Of a DNA stretch of 42,894 bases, positions 1 to 40,385 are shown in pieces. Source of the stretch: Novosphingobium sp. (GTDB lineage Bacteria; Pseudomonadota; Alphaproteobacteria; Sphingomonadales; Sphingomonadaceae); contig JAGREN010000077.1 of NCBI GenBank assembly GCA_020446505.1, positions 1 through 42,894 on the forward strand. Direction: 5' to 3'. The notes under the pieces were generated by a model. It did no database searches. It was not told the DNA's origin and saw nothing but the letters and a program-made list of their open reading frames with translations. The first letter of the stretch is position 1. The number at the start of each line of letters is the position of its first letter. The translations under genes and the position numbers were made by a program.

Positions 1-23
1 TTCAAATCCTACCCCCGCAACCA
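1..23 (+). tRNA. 3' end of initiator tRNA-fMet (partial; gene continues left of the window)
   Basis: The window opens in the T-loop (TTCAAAT), followed by the T-stem 3' strand CCTAC, acceptor strand CCCCGCA, discriminator A and encoded CCA. The acceptor end CCCCGCAACCA is the same as in E. coli initiator tRNA, where A72 leaves position 1-72 unpaired, the mark of tRNA-fMet. No tRNA-like sequence precedes the second repeat at 40149, so the functional copy must be this left one. The 5' part is outside the window, so the anticodon is not seen. Confidence 0.8.
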
Positions 24-1605
24 TCTTTACAGTACAATCGGAGGGATTGGCCGGCTTTGCTTGGTCGATCTGCAGCAAGGCGGCGAGATCGCCGTGGACA
101 ATCAGGTCCACGCCGCGCTTGCCGTCCTGCCTTGGCATGACCTCGATCTTCTCCACCAGGTCATTGAGGATGGCTCGTAGTGATGGCTGAAGGTCAGGAT
201 CTTGGGCCAGGGCGTCGTGCAGATCAGCAATATGTCGATGGTAGCGTTGAATGGCAGCCGGATGGGCGACCATTGATGCGAAGTCTGGCATATCATCGAG
301 ATCAGATTGCAACGAACGCCGTTCTTCTGCGATGGCATGAGAGCGGGCGACGAATTGATCGGGATCCACGCCGCGCACGATCGCGTCGACCATGCGATCA
401 GATTCGCGCTGAAGTTCGTCCAGGCGTTGCTGTCGATCTGCACGTTGGCCAATGATTTCGCGACGCGCCTCATCAGCGGCCGTCTTCAATTCTTCAAGAT
501 AGGCTGCAATGACGTCCGGGTGAAGCAGCTCTCGCTTTAGCGCCGACAGGACGCGCCGTTCGAGCACCGCATTGGTGATCGTCGTGCCGTTTGCGCATGT
601 GCCGGTCTGCTTGTGGCTAGAACATCCCCAGCGATCGGCACCCAGTATGGTGACGGTTCCGCCGCACGAACCGCAGCGGAGTAGGCCCGACATCAGACGC
701 TTGGGTCGCCTCGCCATATGTGAGGGCCTGTCGCCATAGCTCGCCACACGATCATGCACACGCTTCCATAGATCTTCGTCGACGATGCGCAGAGTCGGCA
801 CGTCGGCCGTGACCAGCTCGCTCTCTGCATTAGGTCGGGAAACTCTTTTTCGTGTCTCCGGGTCTTTCCTGAAGGATTGCCGGTTGTAGAGGATTCGGCC
901 GCGATACAGTTCGTTGTTGAGAATGCCGTTACGGCGCTGGCGATGGCCGATGATCGTACTAGCGCGCCAATGGCCACCTCTTGGGGAAGGAACGCCTTCG
1001 GCGTTGAGCCGAGCTGCGATTTCGCGGGGGCTGCGACCTTCTGCATACTCGTGGAAGATTCGCCGAACGATATCGGCCTGGTCCTCATCGATCTCGCGTA
1101 GCCCGCGCTCGGGCTCCCCGTCCTCACGCAACTTGCGGACAGGACGATAGCCGTAGGAGTTGCCACCAGGGATGCGCCCTGCTTCGACCCGGCCGATCTG
1201 GCCGCGCCTTGTCTTCTCGGCGAGCTGCTCGACGTAAACCGCCGAGATGGTGCCGCCCATGCCTATGTGAAGCGATCCGACTTCACCTTCGGAAAGGGTA
1301 ACAATGCGCGCACCTCGAAACCGGATACGCTTGAAGATTCGAGCCAAGTCTTCCTGGTCGCGGCTGATGCGATCAAGTGCTTCGGCGAGCAGGATGTTCG
1401 CCTCGCCATTCTCGATAGCCTGCATCGCGCAGTTGAGGCCAGGGCGATCGCGAACCGTGCCGCTAATGGCGCGATCGGCTTGCTCTCCTACAATCGACCA
1501 GCCTTCGCGATCTGCGCGCTGACGTAGCAGGCGAAACTGATCTTCGACCGATGCGGCAGACTGCATGGCCGTGGAATATCGGGCGTAGAGTAGAGCTTTC
1601 GTCAT
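1..1605 (-). CDS. Large serine recombinase (phage integrase), frame open through attL
   Basis: This is a site-specific recombinase of the large serine family and the probable integrase. The ATG at 1605 opens 535 codons that reach the window edge without a stop. Residues 1-140 form the resolvase catalytic domain, with YARYS holding the likely nucleophile Ser11 and a later DRISRDQEDLARI segment. A recombinase domain follows, then a zinc ribbon from about residue 309 (CGSCG, then later Cys residues), a charged coiled-coil stretch and a C-terminal tail. The start codon overlaps the stop of the 50-codon gene upstream (ATGA). It is the last gene of the early operon. The final codons lie inside attL and continue antisense into tRNA-fMet. 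In the circular phage the same frame would end at a TAA at 40117-40119. Confidence 0.9.
   Translation of the reverse strand, partial: MTKALLYARYSTAMQSAASVEDQFRLLRQRADREGWSIVGEQADRAISGTVRDRPGLNCAMQAIENGEANILLAEALDRISRDQEDLARIFKRIRFRGARIVTLSEGEVGSLHIGMGGTISAVYVEQLAEKTRRGQIGRVEAGRIPGGNSYGYRPVRKLREDGEPERGLREIDEDQADIVRRIFHEYAEGRSPREIAARLNAEGVPSPRGGHWRASTIIGHRQRRNGILNNELYRGRILYNRQSFRKDPETRKRVSRPNAESELVTADVPTLRIVDEDLWKRVHDRVASYGDRPSHMARRPKRLMSGLLRCGSCGGTVTILGADRWGCSSHKQTGTCANGTTITNAVLERRVLSALKRELLHPDVIAAYLEELKTAADEARREIIGQRADRQQRLDELQRESDRMVDAIVRGVDPDQFVARSHAIAEERRSLQSDLDDMPDFASMVAHPAAIQRYHRHIADLHDALAQDPDLQPSLRAILNDLVEKIEVMPRQDGKRGVDLIVHGDLAALLQIDQAKPANPSDCTVKMVAGVGFE
3..23 (+). repeat. attL core (21-bp direct repeat, copy 1)
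   Basis: This repeat is identical to 40149-40169. Identity stops on both sides (T2 against C40148, T24 against A40170). It coincides with the last 21 nt of the tRNA, so integration leaves the tRNA sequence intact. The core also encodes the last seven complete codons of the recombinase frame on the minus strand. Confidence 0.9.
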
Positions 1606-1759: not shown

Positions 1760-2455
1760 TTAGTTCGCACTAGCCTTATGAGAAGCTTCCCAGGCGGCTG
1801 TGATGCGATTGACGGCGGTTTCGAAGTGCGTGGGGTTATGCTCAATGCCGGTGAAGCGCCTTCCAGCGCGGATCGCGGCCACGCCGGTTGAGCCGGTGCC
1901 CATAAAGGGGTCGCAGATATTGGTGCCGGCGACGTTGCGCAGGATCTTGTCCATGACGTCGTCGGGCTTGACGGTTGGGTGGCCGAAATCCTTCAGCGCC
2001 CGTGATCTGCAGGTGAAAATTCGCTTCAGGTCCGCCAGTTCACCTTGTGGATGATATCCTCTGTTCCACGCGTGGAAGTAGATCTCGATTTCGGGCACGT
2101 AGTGCTTGTTCGCCACCGGCATGGGGGTGGTCTTCTGCCAGCAGCACAGTACAAAGCGACGGAACAGCCGCTTCAGGTCGGCGGAGACTTCGGGAATCTG
2201 GTCGTTATGGCAGAAGACCACCACAGCCCCACACAGGGCTGGATTGATGATCGAATGGTCAAAACCCCGGTCGAGACCCTCTTCCATGATCAGATCCAGA
2301 TAGGGTCGGTGCTTGCGGAAGCTGCCGCCCCCCGATGCATTGATGACATATGGCGGGTCCATGACATCGGCATCGAAGAAGCCGAGCGTGGGGCGGATTG
2401 CATAGGCATCGCCGCAATAGAGCGTGGCTGGGCCGATGACGACGGGCGCGGTCAT
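1760..2455 (-). CDS. DNA methyltransferase, beta-class motif order (N6-adenine or N4-cytosine)
   Basis: This 231-residue protein should transfer a methyl group from S-adenosylmethionine to an exocyclic amino group in DNA. The catalytic motif DPPY is at residues 33-36. The SAM-binding motif DPFMGTGST is at 182-190 and is preceded by TVKPDDVMDKIL. The order DPPY before FxGxG is that of beta-class enzymes such as CcrM. No target-recognition specificity can be read. Its ATG overlaps the stop of the PP-loop gene upstream (2452-2455). No restriction endonuclease is adjacent, so protection of phage DNA or regulation is more likely than a restriction system. Confidence 0.88.
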   Translation of the reverse strand: MTAPVVIGPATLYCGDAYAIRPTLGFFDADVMDPPYVINASGGGSFRKHRPYLDLIMEEGLDRGFDHSIINPALCGAVVVFCHNDQIPEVSADLKRLFRRFVLCCWQKTTPMPVANKHYVPEIEIYFHAWNRGYHPQGELADLKRIFTCRSRALKDFGHPTVKPDDVMDKILRNVAGTNICDPFMGTGSTGVAAIRAGRRFTGIEHNPTHFETAVNRITAAWEASHKASAN

Positions 2456-3546
2456 GATCCGCGCCTCGCGCTTCTGGCTTTGTGCTCCGCCATCAACAGC
2501 GCGAAGCGAGCGATGACAGACGTTGCAGTGGGATAATGCTCGGGCTGACCGTGATGTGAGAGGATCGTGCGGCGAGCAGTGACGATTGCTTCGGCCTCGT
2601 CATTCGTTGGCACCCTGACCGGCCAGCCTTTCACGTATCGCAGGCCTGCAGGCATGGCCGCCTCGATTGCTTGGCGTTCGGCGGCCTTCGTCTTCCCCTG
2701 TACAACCAGCGCCGCGAGCGCCGGGCTCAAGAGCAACGGCGCAACGTCAGCCAGCCACCGATCCGGCCAAAAACTGAACGTGCTGATGGCCTCCATCTCC
2801 ACCAGATGAAGATACAGGGGCACATTGCCCGCCACTGTCGCTGCCGCCTTCGCGTCGGCAATACTCTGCATGATGCAGAACGCGCAGCTCACCCGAGAGC
2901 AGCCCCATGAATAAGCGGGATGCAAGGGGAGTCCATGCCGGGTGTGGAATGAGAAAACCTCTTGCGTGGTCCAGTCGACCAACGGATGGAACATCGTCAT
3001 CTGCGTGCCCCATCGGTTGCCCGGCTTGGCATAGCGATGATCGGGTTTGCTGATCGGCGAGTGCCGCCGATTTACGCTTTCCTCTCGCCGGATGCCGACA
3101 ACCTGCACGATATGCCGTCCGCGCAACTCGCGCGACAGATGAGGGCCGATCACCTGCGCTTTTAATTCGCTGGTGCAGAAGCGGAGCGAGGCAGAGGACC
3201 ATGGGCCTATCAGATTGTAAGTGAGAAGGTCGACATAACGCGCCAGTCCATTCGCGAACCGCTGCTCCCAGCGGTGGACCATGTCGCCAGCTTTTCTGCG
3301 AACGACTACCAGCGGCACGCCGATGAATGCCGCTTGGCGTTCCGCCATTGCCATCGTCTCGCGCCATTCGGCGCGGCCAAGGTCGGCATGGATCGCAACG
3401 CGACGGTCTCTCGGGTGCCCGATCCCGTCAAGAAAATGGGAAACCGCGAGCGCCGCTGCGCCGCTGTCCTTCCCGCCGCTGAGGTTAAATGCAACATCGG
3501 CACCTTCACTAAGGGCTCGCCGGACAGTCAAATCGAGCGCGATCAT
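2452..3546 (-). CDS. PAPS reductase-like PP-loop protein (adenosine-nucleotide alpha hydrolase fold)
   Basis: The 364-residue protein has the PP-loop SGGKDS at residues 23-28, typical of N-type ATP pyrophosphatases. These include PAPS reductase, tRNA thiolation enzymes and DndC. A conserved-looking CTSELK (Cys124) and a cluster with Cys216, Cys221 and Cys224 could bind an iron-sulfur cluster. I chose the ATG at 3546, preceded by GAGGCGAGC, because an upstream ATG at 3666 would overlap the DUF5131 gene by about 90 nt. Phages carry many such proteins of unknown substrate. Next to a DNA methyltransferase, sulfur- or adenylation-based DNA modification is possible, but that is inference. Confidence 0.8.
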   Translation of the reverse strand: MIALDLTVRRALSEGADVAFNLSGGKDSGAAALAVSHFLDGIGHPRDRRVAIHADLGRAEWRETMAMAERQAAFIGVPLVVVRRKAGDMVHRWEQRFANGLARYVDLLTYNLIGPWSSASLRFCTSELKAQVIGPHLSRELRGRHIVQVVGIRREESVNRRHSPISKPDHRYAKPGNRWGTQMTMFHPLVDWTTQEVFSFHTRHGLPLHPAYSWGCSRVSCAFCIMQSIADAKAAATVAGNVPLYLHLVEMEAISTFSFWPDRWLADVAPLLLSPALAALVVQGKTKAAERQAIEAAMPAGLRYVKGWPVRVPTNDEAEAIVTARRTILSHHGQPEHYPTATSVIARFALLMAEHKARSARRGS

Positions 3547-3577
3547 GCTGCTCGCCTCGCTATGCTTGAGGTGAGCT

Positions 3578-4516
3578 TCATGTCGGCATCTCAGACCAGG
3601 TGCGGCCATCAAGAAGCCGACCAGCGCGCATCTTGCCGACGCGCCAAATCCTGACCCGATCATCAAGTGCTTTCAGTTCACAGCGAGCTTTGATCGGCAC
3701 TTGCTCGTCCGACCGGAACGATGGCCAACCGGCTACAGGAAGCCACTCGCCCCATTGTTTGAAGAAGAATGGAACGCCTGCCGACACGCACTGGTCGCGC
3801 AGGGAGCGCGCCCAATCGGGATGCATTGGTCTCGCATTCGGTCCGCTCTCGCCACCGACGATTACCCAGTCAGGCAGCAGATCCGGCACAATAAGGCCGA
3901 GATCGGCGAGCAGCGGTTCGGCGCTCCAGAACCGAACGACGGCGGGTGTCATATCGAGATCAAGAGCGCGCTCCAACAGTCGGGGGCGATCCTCGACTGA
4001 AACGCCGAGCCAGACGTTGGAGAGAGGCATTCTGAGCGCGCCATGCCGATTACCCATGCCCGCCGGTATTTCGTTGATGGCCTTACAGAGACTGGCATTA
4101 CCCATCCCGTCGCGCGTGGTCAGGTACTCTCGCATGCGGTCGCTGCGCTTCGTCAGCACCTGAAACGTATGCTGCGGGCATAGCGCCATGACGGCGACGA
4201 TCCGGTCGATCATTTCGTCCGATACCCATTCGCCGAACAGGTCCGTCATCGAGCAAGGGAAGATCATGCGCCGCTTTTTCCAGCGCAGGGGCTGCAGCAG
4301 CACCTCTTCGTCGAGGAAGACTTCGACCCGAGCCCGGTCCTGCCAGGCGAAGCGCACCGGGTTCTTGAAGCGGGGCTGAAATCCCTCGGAGTAGCAGTGC
4401 TTGCAGCCGGGGCTCATGTGCACGCAGAAATGACCGATACCGCCGGTTTCGAGATTGCGCGCACGGATCGGGTTCCAGGTCGCGTCGGTCCACTCGATTT
4501 TGGTCTTATCGGCCAT
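3578..4516 (-). CDS. Phage Gp37/Gp68-like protein (DUF5131), three-Cys motif
   Basis: The 312-residue protein opens with TKIEWTDATWNPI, the signature start of the Gp37/Gp68 (DUF5131) phage family. Cys31, Cys38 and Cys41 form C-X6-C-X2-C (in MSPGCKHCY), a likely iron-sulfur site resembling radical-SAM proteins. Later segments WLGVSVED and WVIVGGESG are also family hallmarks. No biochemical function is firmly known. The start is supported by a GGGGG-rich Shine-Dalgarno 8 nt upstream, and the gene overlaps the preceding one by 11 nt. It sits between an ASCH/hypothetical pair and a PP-loop enzyme. Confidence 0.85.
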   Translation of the reverse strand: MADKTKIEWTDATWNPIRARNLETGGIGHFCVHMSPGCKHCYSEGFQPRFKNPVRFAWQDRARVEVFLDEEVLLQPLRWKKRRMIFPCSMTDLFGEWVSDEMIDRIVAVMALCPQHTFQVLTKRSDRMREYLTTRDGMGNASLCKAINEIPAGMGNRHGALRMPLSNVWLGVSVEDRPRLLERALDLDMTPAVVRFWSAEPLLADLGLIVPDLLPDWVIVGGESGPNARPMHPDWARSLRDQCVSAGVPFFFKQWGEWLPVAGWPSFRSDEQVPIKARCELKALDDRVRIWRVGKMRAGRLLDGRTWSEMPT

Positions 4517-12019: not shown

Positions 12020-12381
12020 CGCCCGGCAGCCCCATAGAACCGCTCGCCGCCGCCGTTGGCGTGGCGGTCGCGCCCGTCGAAAGTGCCGTTCCGATTGGAC
12101 GGGACATTCGGGAGGATCACGTCAAGAAGGGGTTCGGAAGCGTCGTATGGCACGCCATCGACAAGGCCCCGAGGATAGATATCGGGCCGCAGCTCATGGC
12201 GGGAAATGCCGGTCGCGGCTTCTACCGCGAGTACGTGCTCGGCCGGGAGGCGTTTCGATGATTGGAACCACTTCCACACCGATGGTTGAGTGATACCGCA
12301 TATGCGGGCGAGACTGGCTTGTCCGCCCGCGACATCGCGTGCGAGTTCGAGTGCTTCGAAGGGGCTTGGTGTGCAATCCAT
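12016..12381 (-). CDS. YdaS/Cro-like repressor, first gene of the early operon
   Basis: The N-terminus FEALELARDVAGGQASLAR followed by ICGITQPSVWKWF is the YdaS-type Cro fold. RLPAEHVLAVEAATGI completes the DNA-binding domain by about residue 65. The C-terminal 55 residues are low-complexity. The start at 12381 is the only Met that keeps the domain intact. No Shine-Dalgarno precedes it, and the predicted -10 box ends 7 nt upstream, so the mRNA may be leaderless. It probably competes with the divergent S24 repressor at the operators between them. Confidence 0.82.
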   Translation of the reverse strand: MDCTPSPFEALELARDVAGGQASLARICGITQPSVWKWFQSSKRLPAEHVLAVEAATGISRHELRPDIYPRGLVDGVPYDASEPLLDVILPNVPSNRNGTFDGRDRHANGGGERFYGAAGR

Positions 12382-12386
12382 GGGGG

Positions 12387-12456
12387 TATCTATAGATATG
12401 TCTATTAGACGGTCAATAGATATTTCGAACTTTAATCCTATAGACGAAGCTATAGG
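12387..12456. promoter_or_regulatory. Operator region: three inverted repeats between divergent regulators
   Basis: Three AT-rich dyads share CTAT/ATAG half-sites. They are the 12-bp palindrome TATCTATAGATA (12387-12398), TCTATT-N8-AATAGA (12401-12420) and CCTATAG-N6-CTATAGG (12437-12456, perfect 7-bp arms). They fill the gap between the YdaS-like gene (start 12381, leftward) and the S24 repressor (start 12467, rightward). The layout is that of a lambdoid switch with three operators. Confidence 0.75.
12389..12416 (-). promoter_or_regulatory. Predicted early promoter (sigma-70 type)
   Basis: On the minus strand, -35 TTGACC (12416-12411) and -10 TATAGA (12394-12389) are separated by 16 bp. The start of transcription would fall at about 12381-12383, at the ATG of the YdaS-like gene. 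The promoter lies within two operator-like inverted repeats, so repressor binding should block it. It would drive the whole leftward operon down to the recombinase. Confidence 0.65.
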
Positions 12457-12466
12457 GTTGGCGGCC

Positions 12467-13147
12467 ATGGGCTTGGGTGATCGAATTCGTAAGCGTCTAG
12501 AAGAGCTAGACATGTCCCAGGCGGAACTGGCTCGTCGCGTCGGAATAACGCAGCCGAGCATCAATCACCTGGTTAAGCGCGGTGCGGCAGGCTCCGCGCA
12601 TCTGCATAAAATTGCTCGCGTACTTGTGACGACGCCCGAGTATCTGTCCGGCGAAACCGATGATGATTCGCCGGGAGCGGGCGTGCCCGACCGCAGCTCC
12701 AAGCCTCGGGATGATGAACCAAAGGCCGCCGATAGCGACGCCATCGCCTGGATAAAGCAGGCCGATCTGACGTTGGGCATGGGCGGCAGCTATCTCGAAG
12801 GCCCGGTGGAAGAGAAGCTCATTCCGTTTCCGGCCGATTGGTTGAGCAATTATTCGCCGGCCGCCCAGCGCTTCCTTGTCTTCGTTCGGGGGAAGGGCAC
12901 CTCAATGGAGCCGACGATCTTCGACGGCAATCTCTGCCTGCTCGATCTCAGCCGCACTGTCGTCGATGAGCAGGACGAACTCTGGGCCTGTGCCTACGGT
13001 AACATCGGCATGATCAAGCGTTTGCGGGCGATGCCGGACGGATCGATAAAGATCATGTCGGACGCCGATGGCGTGCGCGACGAAACTGCCGGCGATGGCG
13101 AGCTGCACATCATTGCCCGGTGTGTCGGCGTGTTTCGGCGGACATGA
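12467..13147 (+). CDS. Phage repressor, XRE helix-turn-helix plus S24 peptidase-like domain
   Basis: This is the probable lysogeny repressor. Residues 1-60 are an XRE DNA-binding domain (IRKRLEELDMSQAELARRVG, then ITQPSINHLVKRG). Residues 110-226 are an S24/LexA-like domain with Ser146 in GTSMEPT and Lys184 in MIKRL, the Ser-Lys dyad with normal spacing. No Ala-Gly cleavage site is seen at the usual distance before Ser146; the segment there reads LGMGGSYLEG. I chose ATG 12467 because the helix-turn-helix begins at once. The earlier start at 12290 would run through the operators and overlap the divergent gene. The stop overlaps the HIRAN gene start by 4 nt. Confidence 0.88.
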   Translation: MGLGDRIRKRLEELDMSQAELARRVGITQPSINHLVKRGAAGSAHLHKIARVLVTTPEYLSGETDDDSPGAGVPDRSSKPRDDEPKAADSDAIAWIKQADLTLGMGGSYLEGPVEEKLIPFPADWLSNYSPAAQRFLVFVRGKGTSMEPTIFDGNLCLLDLSRTVVDEQDELWACAYGNIGMIKRLRAMPDGSIKIMSDADGVRDETAGDGELHIIARCVGVFRRT

Positions 13148-14190: not shown

Positions 14191-14483
14191 AAACTTTCTC
14201 GTTTCTCACTCAGGGGGGGCACGCTTTTCGGCGGCAAGGCCAATTGGTTAATCTTTGCAGCGATATCCTCAAGCGACCACATGTGATCGGTGATGCCTAC
14301 GGCCATTGCAGGCGTAGGCCGCGTGGACAAATTCCAAATCGAATGACGACTGCTCGTGGTCAACTGCGAAAATGGGACGAATGGCTGGATGTCGGTGGGA
14401 AGCTGACCTCGAATGTAATGCAATCCAATTCTGACCGTTCTAATCGGTATATCTGTTTGACCGACCGAGATTGCAGTTCGCAC
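14187..14483 (-). pseudogene. Degenerate fragment resembling the C-terminus of an IS transposase
   Basis: The frame contains TPAMAVGITDHMWSLEDIAA near residues 57-76. This resembles the TPAM-x-AG-xTDHxWS-xEE(L/I) end of transposase-like proteins. The preceding residues (FSQLTTSSRHSIWNLSTRP) look like a decayed YNF-xR-H-x-TL segment. No upstream catalytic part is present, and its 5' end overlaps the end of the HNH gene. I read it as a relic of an insertion that brought in this island. Similarity is judged by eye. Confidence 0.45.
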
Positions 14484-15363
14484 ATAAGGTCCGCAAGTTT
14501 TCTAAAACGGTAGATCCACCACGAGACCAGGGAAGTATGTGATCTACATGCAAATCACATTCAGGGTTTTTGGCTGGATTATCTCCGCATAGAACACACC
14601 TGAAATTGTCGCGCTTCAGCACTTTGAAGCGCAAACCCAGAGGGGCATCACGCCGACCTTGTCGATTGGGATATTCCTCAATCACCTCGATTTTGGGAAG
14701 GTCACAAACAGACCGTTCTCGGTTGTCTACGTTGCCATTTACTTGGTCATCGTCACGGTTTGCTTGTTCGACAAACGCTGCCAATGCTTTGTTCCATGTC
14801 CCAAAGCGCCGCGAGTATGCTTTACCCCCGACGATCGACGGTGACTGCCCCATTTCTCGGTAAGTCGGAGGACGCCCATAATGCGTCCAAACATTTAGGA
14901 GATTTTCGAAACATTCGTCATCGGTGTACCTTGGGCTTAGCGGAGTAGTGCCAATTCCCGCTGTTTTGAGCGCCTCGCGGGTTGACCCCCAGCCCCTGAT
15001 CAAACGTTTGTTGCTGAATGGCAGATGTTGTTTCACATCCTCCACGGTTAGAAAATCCTTACCTAGCTTTGTGGCCAGATCCCTTAGTCGTGATAGAACC
15101 TCATCATCAGACAGTGAAATTGCATGTCGGCCAATTCTATGGCCGACCCCAGCTGCATTGAGTGCATTCGCCCATGAGCCAAATCGACGGGTCACTGTTG
15201 TCCGATCAACTTTTGCGTGACGGCCAAACGCCTCCTGAGTGAGTTCCTTGCCGGGAATCAAGGCCGAGACACGTCGAATTTCAGCAAGGATTGCTTCATC
15301 CGAGGTGTCCACCAGTCTGTTTAATTCGAAGCGGGCATCATCTTCATTCACGCTACAAGCCAT
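14440..15363 (-). CDS. HNH endonuclease with homing-endonuclease-associated repeats, 307 aa
   Basis: Residues 20-200 hold three tandem modules of the homing-endonuclease-associated repeat type. Each begins like DEAILAEIRRVSALIPGK and ends like RRFGSWANALNAAGV (also RGWGSTREALKTAGI and RRFGTWNKALAAF). The C-terminus is an HNH domain: RFKVLKRDNFRCVLCGD, LHVDHILPWSRGG and LRTLCANCN, with paired CXXC zinc ligands. It should cut DNA at a site chosen by the repeats. As a free-standing gene in a prophage it may be a mobile endonuclease or a defence nuclease. GC content is visibly lower than in neighbouring phage genes. Confidence 0.85.
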   Translation of the reverse strand: MACSVNEDDARFELNRLVDTSDEAILAEIRRVSALIPGKELTQEAFGRHAKVDRTTVTRRFGSWANALNAAGVGHRIGRHAISLSDDEVLSRLRDLATKLGKDFLTVEDVKQHLPFSNKRLIRGWGSTREALKTAGIGTTPLSPRYTDDECFENLLNVWTHYGRPPTYREMGQSPSIVGGKAYSRRFGTWNKALAAFVEQANRDDDQVNGNVDNRERSVCDLPKIEVIEEYPNRQGRRDAPLGLRFKVLKRDNFRCVLCGDNPAKNPECDLHVDHILPWSRGGSTVLENLRTLCANCNLGRSNRYTD

Positions 15364-37767: not shown

Positions 37768-37780
37768 CGGGCTTTCGCCG

Positions 37781-37854
37781 AATTCCTGGCGGGAGTCGAA
37801 CCCGCGCGCACTCCTTCGTTAGGGGAGCGCTCTATCCAGCTGAGCTACAGGACT
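37781..37854 (-). tRNA. tRNA-like gene, anticodon reads AAC (or degenerate Arg-ACG)
   Basis: A full cloverleaf can be drawn on the minus strand. The parts are acceptor AGTCCTG/CAGGAAT with one mismatch at 2-71, D-arm GCTC/GAGC in TAGCTCAGCTGGATAGAGC, and T-arm GCGGG TTCGACT CCCGC. The anticodon stem is CTCC/GGAG with a C31-A39 mismatch. The seven-base loop is CTAACGA, giving formal anticodon AAC (Val), rare in bacteria. One inserted A in an Arg-ACG loop (CTACGAA) would explain it, and the D-arm is Arg-like. CCA is not encoded. It may be active, or a decayed phage tRNA. Confidence 0.65.
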
Positions 37855-39933: not shown

Positions 39934-40148
39934 TTTTTCCGGTACCCCCCGTCATATGCGAAGCAACGGTCGATTGTCCTTTCAATCTCGCAGACTCGTT
40001 AGCGCTTTGCATCGTGCGCAGCGATTAGGCTCAACTTCAGCGCAGTGGACTGCGCCGCTTGCTCTTTCATAAGGATATGGTGGAGGGGCCGTATAGGGCC
40101 TGCGCCACAAGCTAAGTTAGGCAGCGATCGGCATTGTACGCCAGCGAC

Positions 40149-40169
40149 CAAATCCTACCCCCGCAACCA
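40149..40169 (+). repeat. attR core (21-bp direct repeat, copy 2)
   Basis: Identical to 3-23. The sequence to its left is phage DNA that cannot fold as a tRNA. The sequence to its right is host DNA starting with the tRNA terminator. Read on the minus strand, the phage side extends the recombinase frame by ten codons to TAA at 40117-40119. Confidence 0.9.
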
Positions 40170-40176
40170 ACACAAG

Positions 40177-40199
40177 ACCCCGCTTCGGCGGGGTTTTTT
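40177..40199 (+). terminator. Intrinsic terminator, originally of tRNA-fMet
   Basis: ACCCCGC-TTCG-GCGGGGT followed by TTTTTA: a 7-bp stem with a UUCG tetraloop and a T-run, 8 nt after the attR core. Before integration it would have stood directly after the tRNA-fMet CCA end. It is now 40 kb away from the tRNA. Confidence 0.9.
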
Positions 40200-40385
40200 A
40201 TTGGCTCTGCGGTGGTGCCGGGATTGGATATTGGTTCAGCCGAATCGCGCATGAGCGCGGCACCCCGAGGTGAGGAAGCGGGGTACCCTCGCCCCACACA
40301 ACCAGTTCAGGTCATCGCCCCCCGACGGTCGCTCTGAAGCGGTCGGGCGTGGGTTTCTCTCGGATCGGCAAAGATCTCAAGCAAA

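Follow-up and report, generated by a model that had tools for sequence, protein, structure and literature searches.

Can the integration of a prophage rewrite the C-terminus of the enzyme that performs it? This question is raised by one end of contig JAGREN010000077.1 of Novosphingobium sp. (assembly GCA_020446505.1), here analysed over positions 1 to 42,894, the whole stretch of 42,894 nucleotides being referred to as the window. The window begins at base 1 of this contig (C100), in a genome of 3.18 Mb and 178 contigs. A large serine recombinase (integrase) gene occupies positions 1-1605 of the minus strand, with its ATG at 1603-1605; in the prophage form the contig edge truncates it, leaving 535 readable residues, from M1 to ...CTVKMVAGVGFE, ending in MVAGVGFE. 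No stop was found in this frame through base 1, in agreement with the preliminary description of this DNA, which had reported it open to the window edge. Moreover, a core of 21 bases, CAAATCCTACCCCCGCAACCA, appeared in two exact copies on the plus strand, corresponding to the left attachment site (attL, 3-23) and the right one (attR, 40149-40169). The attL copy represents the 3′ end of a transfer RNA (tRNA), comprising the end of the T-arm, the acceptor strand and CCA, and is read antisense as VAGVGF in the integrase. At attR, the core adjoins a phage-only integrase 3′ end (40117-40148, minus strand), severed by integration, which encodes GRWRTMPIAA and then TAA (40117-40119). Joining phage arm, core and phage arm to reconstruct the phage attachment site (attP) gave MVAGVGFGRWRTMPIAA followed by the stop, the TAA being complementary to 40117-40119. 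The phage-form integrase would thus have 544 residues (534 up to F plus 10) and end in FGRWRTMPIAA, and the joined translation bore out the product that had been proposed earlier. Beyond attR, the host DNA past the tRNA (40170-40206, plus strand) showed a terminator-like stem, CCCCGC...GCGGGG, with a T run, read by eye.

The nature of the enzyme was established from its domains. Pfam matches above the cut-off were Resolvase (PF00239), Recombinase (PF07508) and Zn_ribbon_recom (PF13408), and the protein matched PHROG 95 (integrase). Residues S11, C311, C314, C328 and C337 were invariant in the alignment A1, and long helices were found at 363-410, 419-438 and 449-468 in the predicted structure. 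Judged by these features, the enzyme is a large serine integrase, with catalytic domain, recombinase domain and zinc ribbon plus coiled coil, and its predicted activity is recombination between attP and the bacterial site attB. Furthermore, PHROG and Pfam identified terminase, portal, scaffold, capsid, sheath, tape measure and baseplate genes in the window, a gene content by which the element is a prophage with contractile-tail genes. No match to the tyrosine integrase family PF00589 was found on contig C100, and because the four matches in the same genome are all located elsewhere, the serine recombinase is the sole recognised integrase of the prophage.

Pattern searches of the window's genome assembly for the tRNA body found nothing further, so the contig break falls inside the tRNA. 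Since this initiator tRNA body is missing, the prophage tail of the window had to be taken from relatives. The nearest relative found (locus L033, ~60% identical) ends in MVAGVGFEPTTFRL, its stop being within an intact tRNA-Met(cat), and among the collected integrase ends FRL appeared 30 times and FGL only once (L152, of another class). The prophage tail of the window is therefore probably EPTTFRL rather than EPTTFGL, the residue before the final L being R. Of the ending EPTTFGL with a stop at the anticodon, as first predicted, the stop was right in kind, as in L033, while FGL gives way to the likelier FRL.

To define the family, related integrases were collected with protein searches in genome samples. 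At an E-value of 1e-60, the family sample of 298 genomes had matches in 38, as did 38 of 296 in the order sample, two overlapping samples that each include the window's genome. In the phylum sample, 12 of 299 genomes matched at the same threshold, 11 belonging to the window's class, the window's genome among them, and one to another class, and in the genus sample 68 of 99 matched at an E-value of 0.001, many of these matches being distant resolvases. A scan with the window protein gave six loci in viral sequences, all of them distant relatives, and three in genome contigs, and a pattern for the P arm gave three matches across 98 genus genomes, each with two or three mismatches. A total of 104 loci were finally considered, excluding the window itself (L004), the distant or partial L018, L019 and L021-L032, the phage records L145-L147 and matches without a locus. 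In 46 of them the integrase stop lay inside an intact predicted antisense tRNA, four read through a whole tRNA, one had a tRNA nearby and 53 had none. The 50 overlaps involved tRNA-Met(cat) (35), Gly (10), Asn (3), Leu (1) and Gln (1), while the 53 loci lacking a tRNA include loci at contig edges, viral records trimmed at the stop, sites occupied by a later island, genes that are damaged, and clades that end differently. Seven loci without a tRNA at the stop (L014, L015, L051, L073, L078, L080 and L084) have similar, VITKVASGSRG-like ends, perhaps reflecting another target gene.

The search for the same arrangement in related recombinases, as the preliminary description had advised, was thus successful, and this recurrence rules out chance or artefact. 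The ending of the contig within the tRNA, together with the absence of the tRNA body from the assembly, could by itself suggest an artefact that arose in assembly or annotation at the contig edge. Such an origin is scarcely conceivable given the like junctions in these 46 loci of many genomes and the presence of the phage form in two deposited phage genomes, and for the family as a whole it was discarded on account of this recurrence.

The exchange of the tail was subsequently traced across relatives. The attR was sought for 44 elements (20, then 24 more) by means of core repeats, and attP was reconstructed by joining the ends. This was achieved for 24 of the 44, the core repeat being 28-59 kb from the integrase in 18 of the 24 (extremes of 8.3 and 91 kb), which, together with the intact tRNAs at the stops of relatives, would fit restoration of the tRNA. 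Including the window, the integrase tail changed in all 25 of 25 elements, in line with the earlier claim that integration rewrites the recombinase C-terminus. Where relatives offered the whole junction, the prophage-form integrase ended in the antisense tRNA with an EPTTFRL-like tail and a TGA stop at the anticodon, and the prophage tails varied with the target tRNA, even with the reading frame. Replacement of the integrase tail upon integration is thus, as read from these junctions, a trait of the family. For the other 20 elements no attR was found (L072, L040, L033, L008, L081, L155, L150, L048, L217, L225, L229, L246, L250, L161, L162, L163, L164, L167, L173 and L174), owing to a short contig, an element perhaps >60 kb long or a viral record trimmed at the stop; none was found for L009 within the 20 kb searched. 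Some doubtful attR picks were kept, namely L213 (one mismatch in the 10-nt key), L066 (whose second candidate, at 41.7 kb, continues as a tRNA), L045 (two candidates, with the stop 168.5 nt away) and L047 (in which a damaged duplicate of the integrase 3′ end flanks attR).

Five phage forms could be read directly: Rhizobium phage RR1-A, Microcystis phage Mae-JY30, the viral contig L171 and the genome contigs L039 and L153, the last two, likewise doubtful picks, being counted as phage forms since no tRNA follows the core. The integrase of the free phage RR1-A (L145) ends in ...GRVVAGERFEQSPQIILGRFVA, while that of L161, 88% identical to it, ends in ...GRMVAGEGLEPPTRGL, which is of the tRNA-Met type, the record stopping at that codon and so showing no tRNA. 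A third deposited phage, Mae-JY29, has an integrase end without the core. Tandem attP-like copies were also observed. The attR of L037 has three in-frame cores 51 bp apart, L039 has three cores with 51 bp spacing and no tRNA, and each of L040, L013, L063 and L065 carries two cores ahead of the end, the second of which seems to have served for integration; the spacing was 51 bp in L037, L039 and L040, and 66-96 bp in L013, L063 and L065. Different prophages seem to have used different tandem copies, so that tail length can apparently vary within one phage type.

Some relatives might not undergo the exchange at all, if their attP carried the tRNA up to the stop codon and both forms had the same tail. 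Seven integrases (L006, L007, L075, L076, L165, L170 and L177) keep a tRNA-type tail with no complete tRNA at the stop, and for L006 (G080:C125, L179) no tRNA and no second copy of the segment was found in the 20 kb downstream. A class of this kind is nevertheless very improbable, as the tRNA segment recurs downstream in genomes G029 (L007/L178), G431 (L075/L185) and G444 (L076/L186). The displaced tRNA is intact in G431 and G444, while the G029 contig ends inside it, and an open reading frame (ORF) for a tyrosine integrase adjoins the serine integrase stop in G029 and G444. The recurrence of the segment and the adjoining tyrosine integrase ORF indicate the later entry of another island into this tRNA, at its anticodon. 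L007, L075 and L076 were accordingly rejected as phages with an unchanged tail, later islands explaining these three cases, and L006, L066 and the viral contigs remain as exceptions.

The position of strand exchange was then examined in the attP sequences. In 29 of them, the complementarity between the two arms peaked 10.5 nt from the T of the antisense CCA, with 58% of complementary positions vs. 31% at the next-best centre. Among 16 attPs picked without any dyad criterion, complementarity was 57.7% at the shared centre compared to 25.6% elsewhere; the shared centre was the best one in 12 of the 16, and none of 2000 between-element shuffles of the right arms matched the observed count. By tRNA geometry, this centre corresponds to the junction of the acceptor stem and the T-stem, and it is likely, from this symmetry, the point of strand exchange. 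In the window, the centre so set by the family falls on the CC at positions 12-13 (GG in the integrase sense). About it, the outer half of the left arm, GTACAAT (32-38, plus strand), is inverted in the outer half of the right arm, ATTGTAC (40133-40139, plus strand), giving seven contiguous complementary pairs. The whole dyad of the window attP spans ~52 bp and lies wholly within the 3′ end of the integrase gene. A dyad of ~50 bp with a 2-bp centre is, by its layout, the attP of a serine integrase, and published serine integrase half-sites of 25 bp fit this size (PMC3783163).

The phage-only tails were analysed in 30 elements, omitting L009 (VAGAGHSMGD), L011 (in which the frame enters other DNA) and L172. 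The stop appeared within 60.5 nt of the dyad centre in 28 of the 30, compared to 23.7% of random positions, or 38.4% in the same control with long open frames dropped, and in 13 it was located at exactly +42.5. Moreover, the final residue was A or V in 20 tails, while the controls gave 14.7% (48,260 open stretches) and 21.2% (1,975 long ORFs), with a P-value of 1e-7. Final A, V, L or I appeared in 24 of the 30 tails and, after removal of six near relatives, in 18 of 24 (P-value of 1.5e-5). Among the seven elements targeting tRNA-Gly, four ended in LKAxV (L053, L074, L012 and L077) with differing codons, L012 even reading the core in another frame. Furthermore, the tails of L035 and L036 differ by six synonymous (including the stop) and three non-synonymous codon changes, a bias reached by 0.6% of random change sets (P-value of 0.006). 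The end IAA was found in three of the 30 tails (window, L147 and L171) vs. 0.06% and 0.15% in the controls, and in the window it coincides with the last residues of the tag ANDNEALAIAA specified by the alpha-type transfer-messenger RNA (tmRNA) that the host genome encodes. Among 14 control genomes, a tmRNA of this type appeared in Caulobacter alone, which points to an alphaproteobacterial host. Taken as statistics, the kept length, the kept frame and the biased C-terminus suggest that the phage-only tail is under selection.

The exchange could also be inert, with attP placed at the end of the gene, the last residues being spare and any open tail with a near stop serving equally. The tail does lie past the conserved fold: among solved structures, the best match of the family profile is the serine integrase SPbeta YokA (9dxh and others, E-value of 9e-24), and this match ends at profile position 498; the model of the window protein (14-sequence alignment, predicted template modelling score of 0.49) has a predicted local distance difference test score <50 at 507-535; and the linker preceding the core is rich in insertions and deletions in the family alignment. 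The end of the structural match and the disorder of the model imply that the tail is probably free. The variation of prophage tails by target tRNA and frame likewise agrees with an inert exchange. This explanation is nonetheless rather unlikely in our view, as the stop position, the A/V end and LKAxV are kept despite changes of codon and frame, and L035 and L036 show the synonymous bias.

Another explanation is a docking or regulatory peptide, bound by a directionality factor or some other partner, so that the exchange would alter activity or direction, as the preliminary description had supposed. Conservation of the tail at the protein level would suit any bound peptide, the clade-specific ends LKAxV, RRIRL and IAA could be partner-specific, and the direction of serine integrases depends on their C-terminal domains (PMC3783163). 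No partner is known, however, the bias is found in the very last residues, and the IAA with which the tmRNA tag ends is common to the window, L147 and L171, the last of these reading the core in another frame; we regard a docking role as unlikely.

Our tentative preference, held at a little less than even chances, is that integration strips a degron-like phage tail from the serine integrase, so that stability rather than direction would change. By sequence, the integrase gene of the circular phage reads through attP and stops just after it with a phage-specific tail (GRWRTMPIAA in the window). Upon integration, the same gene enters the antisense tRNA, ending there in the relatives with the whole junction, and the phage would supply the acceptor 3′ strand and CCA by which the tRNA is restored. 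By its resemblance to known tags, the phage-only tail may be a C-terminal degron of the ssrA or a related kind. In that case, integrase made by the free phage would be short-lived, and loss of the tag by integration would leave a stabler prophage-encoded enzyme, ready for later excision with a directionality factor. In its fuller form, a one-step stability switch in which a selected degron, in some cases with an end copied from the host tmRNA tag, gives way upon recombination to a stable tail that the host tRNA encodes, the proposal is a possibility to which we give distinctly less than an even chance.

Several points weigh against the degron proposal and the findings on which it draws. The window's own dyad score was weak (10 of 22 positions, with other centres giving 10 and 11), and only the 7-bp block favours the chosen centre. 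Except for the five phage forms read directly, attP was obtained by joining ends, and for part of the elements the choice among candidates made use of the dyad. In L037 the distance to the stop was taken from the third and last tandem copy; measured from the one used, the stop is 102 nt more distant and the tally becomes 27 of 30. The C-terminal motifs were chosen after the tails had been seen, the P-values being therefore descriptive, and the sampled elements are related by descent. An AA end was present in only five of 30 tails, and six ended in none of A, V, L or I (L066 in K, L221 in R, L083 in Y, L045 in P, and L152 and L153 in G). LKAxV was absent from three of the seven tRNA-Gly elements (L016 LRVGV, L017 QRASV and L242 IVGRA). 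The prophage tails of the tRNA-Met elements end in L, which is hydrophobic too, and two of the tRNA-Gly ones (L017 and L242) in A. Finally, the right attP arm and part of the tail share the same DNA, and constraint on this DNA therefore contributes to conservation of the tail.

Known systems share parts of this arrangement. Myxophage Mx8, described by Tojo et al. in 1996, is said to carry attP within int, its target reportedly being tRNA-Asp. It offers the closest integrase example, with attP inside the integrase gene and an integrase C-terminus changed by integration. Unlike Mx8, whose integrase is a tyrosine integrase, the window family consists of large serine recombinases with several tRNA targets and a conserved-looking phage-only tail; by sequence, the window system works like Mx8 yet is not a member of its type. 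According to Islander (2014), the integrases of Mx8 and SSV extend across attP, and no serine integrases were known to use tRNA genes as targets (PMC4383910). Among worked examples, mycobacteriophage BPs comes closest: its attP is situated within the repressor gene, so that the repressor loses its C-terminus upon integration, its viral form is ssrA-like tagged, and the integrase also carries a C-terminal proteolysis signal (PMC4557955). In the window family, by contrast, attP is in the integrase gene instead of the repressor gene, the new tail comes from the host tRNA and the degron is predicted from sequence; the CI-like repressor gene of the prophage (helix-turn-helix plus S24 peptidase by Pfam and PHROG; 12290-13147, plus strand) is separate from attP.

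Among systems with other recombinases or targets, phiRSM1 also uses a serine recombinase, with a 13-nt core equal to the reversed 3′ end of tRNA-Ser and attP adjoining the integrase gene, but it is a filamentous phage, the enzyme is small and resolvase-like, and attP lies between ORF14 and ORF15, outside the integrase gene (PMC3816273). In phiRSS0, attP is inside ORF13 and integration shortens the C-terminus of its product by 26 residues, although the host site is dif and the gene encodes a putative regulator, not a recombinase (PMC3816273). Paracoccus phage vB_PamS_Pami6 is a serine recombinase prophage in an alphaproteobacterial tRNA-Met(CAT) and, by this description, possibly a member of the window family; for 11 other serine recombinases of the main cluster in the same source, no site was identified (PMC6536676). 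Serine recombinases of mycobacterial AICEs, which are conjugative elements, integrate at tRNA-Leu; the source calls integration of serine recombinases in tRNA genes rare and names cases, and no tail swap is described in the portion of that source available (PMC3218068). In the open-licence literature, neither a described tail swap of a serine integrase nor the tail peptides GFEPTT, EGLEPPT and GLEPPTRGL were found.

The set as a whole constitutes a family of serine integrases that target tRNA genes with a shared crossover position and with attP inside their own gene. If the stability switch is true, the integrase sequence itself records whether the phage is free or integrated, and if the phage tail is a degron, recombination itself would tie the lifetime of the enzyme to the commitment to lysogeny. 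Genes that end in a tRNA may escape annotation and the mapping of attachment sites, and the use of such an integrase as a tool requires choosing which of two natural ends to clone.

Other observations concern the family and the window. A second family member was found in the window's genome (G000:C162:11695-13215, L160), with its stop within a tRNA-Asn(gtt), and at G390:C1:2014330-2017611 (L232) two family integrases lie tail to tail with ~115 bp between them. Of the 30 plasmid matches listed (H21-H50, from 64 records), 13 overlay no gene in the gene table, perhaps by tRNA overlap, the table being incomplete. Adjoining the integrase gene, positions 1760-4516 of the window contain, in a row, genes for a DNA methylase, a PAPS-reductase-like protein and a DUF5131 protein, which may form a set for DNA modification. 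An HNH endonuclease with homing-endonuclease-associated repeats was found at 14440-15363, and a tRNA-Val(aac) was located within the prophage at 37780-37854 on the minus strand.

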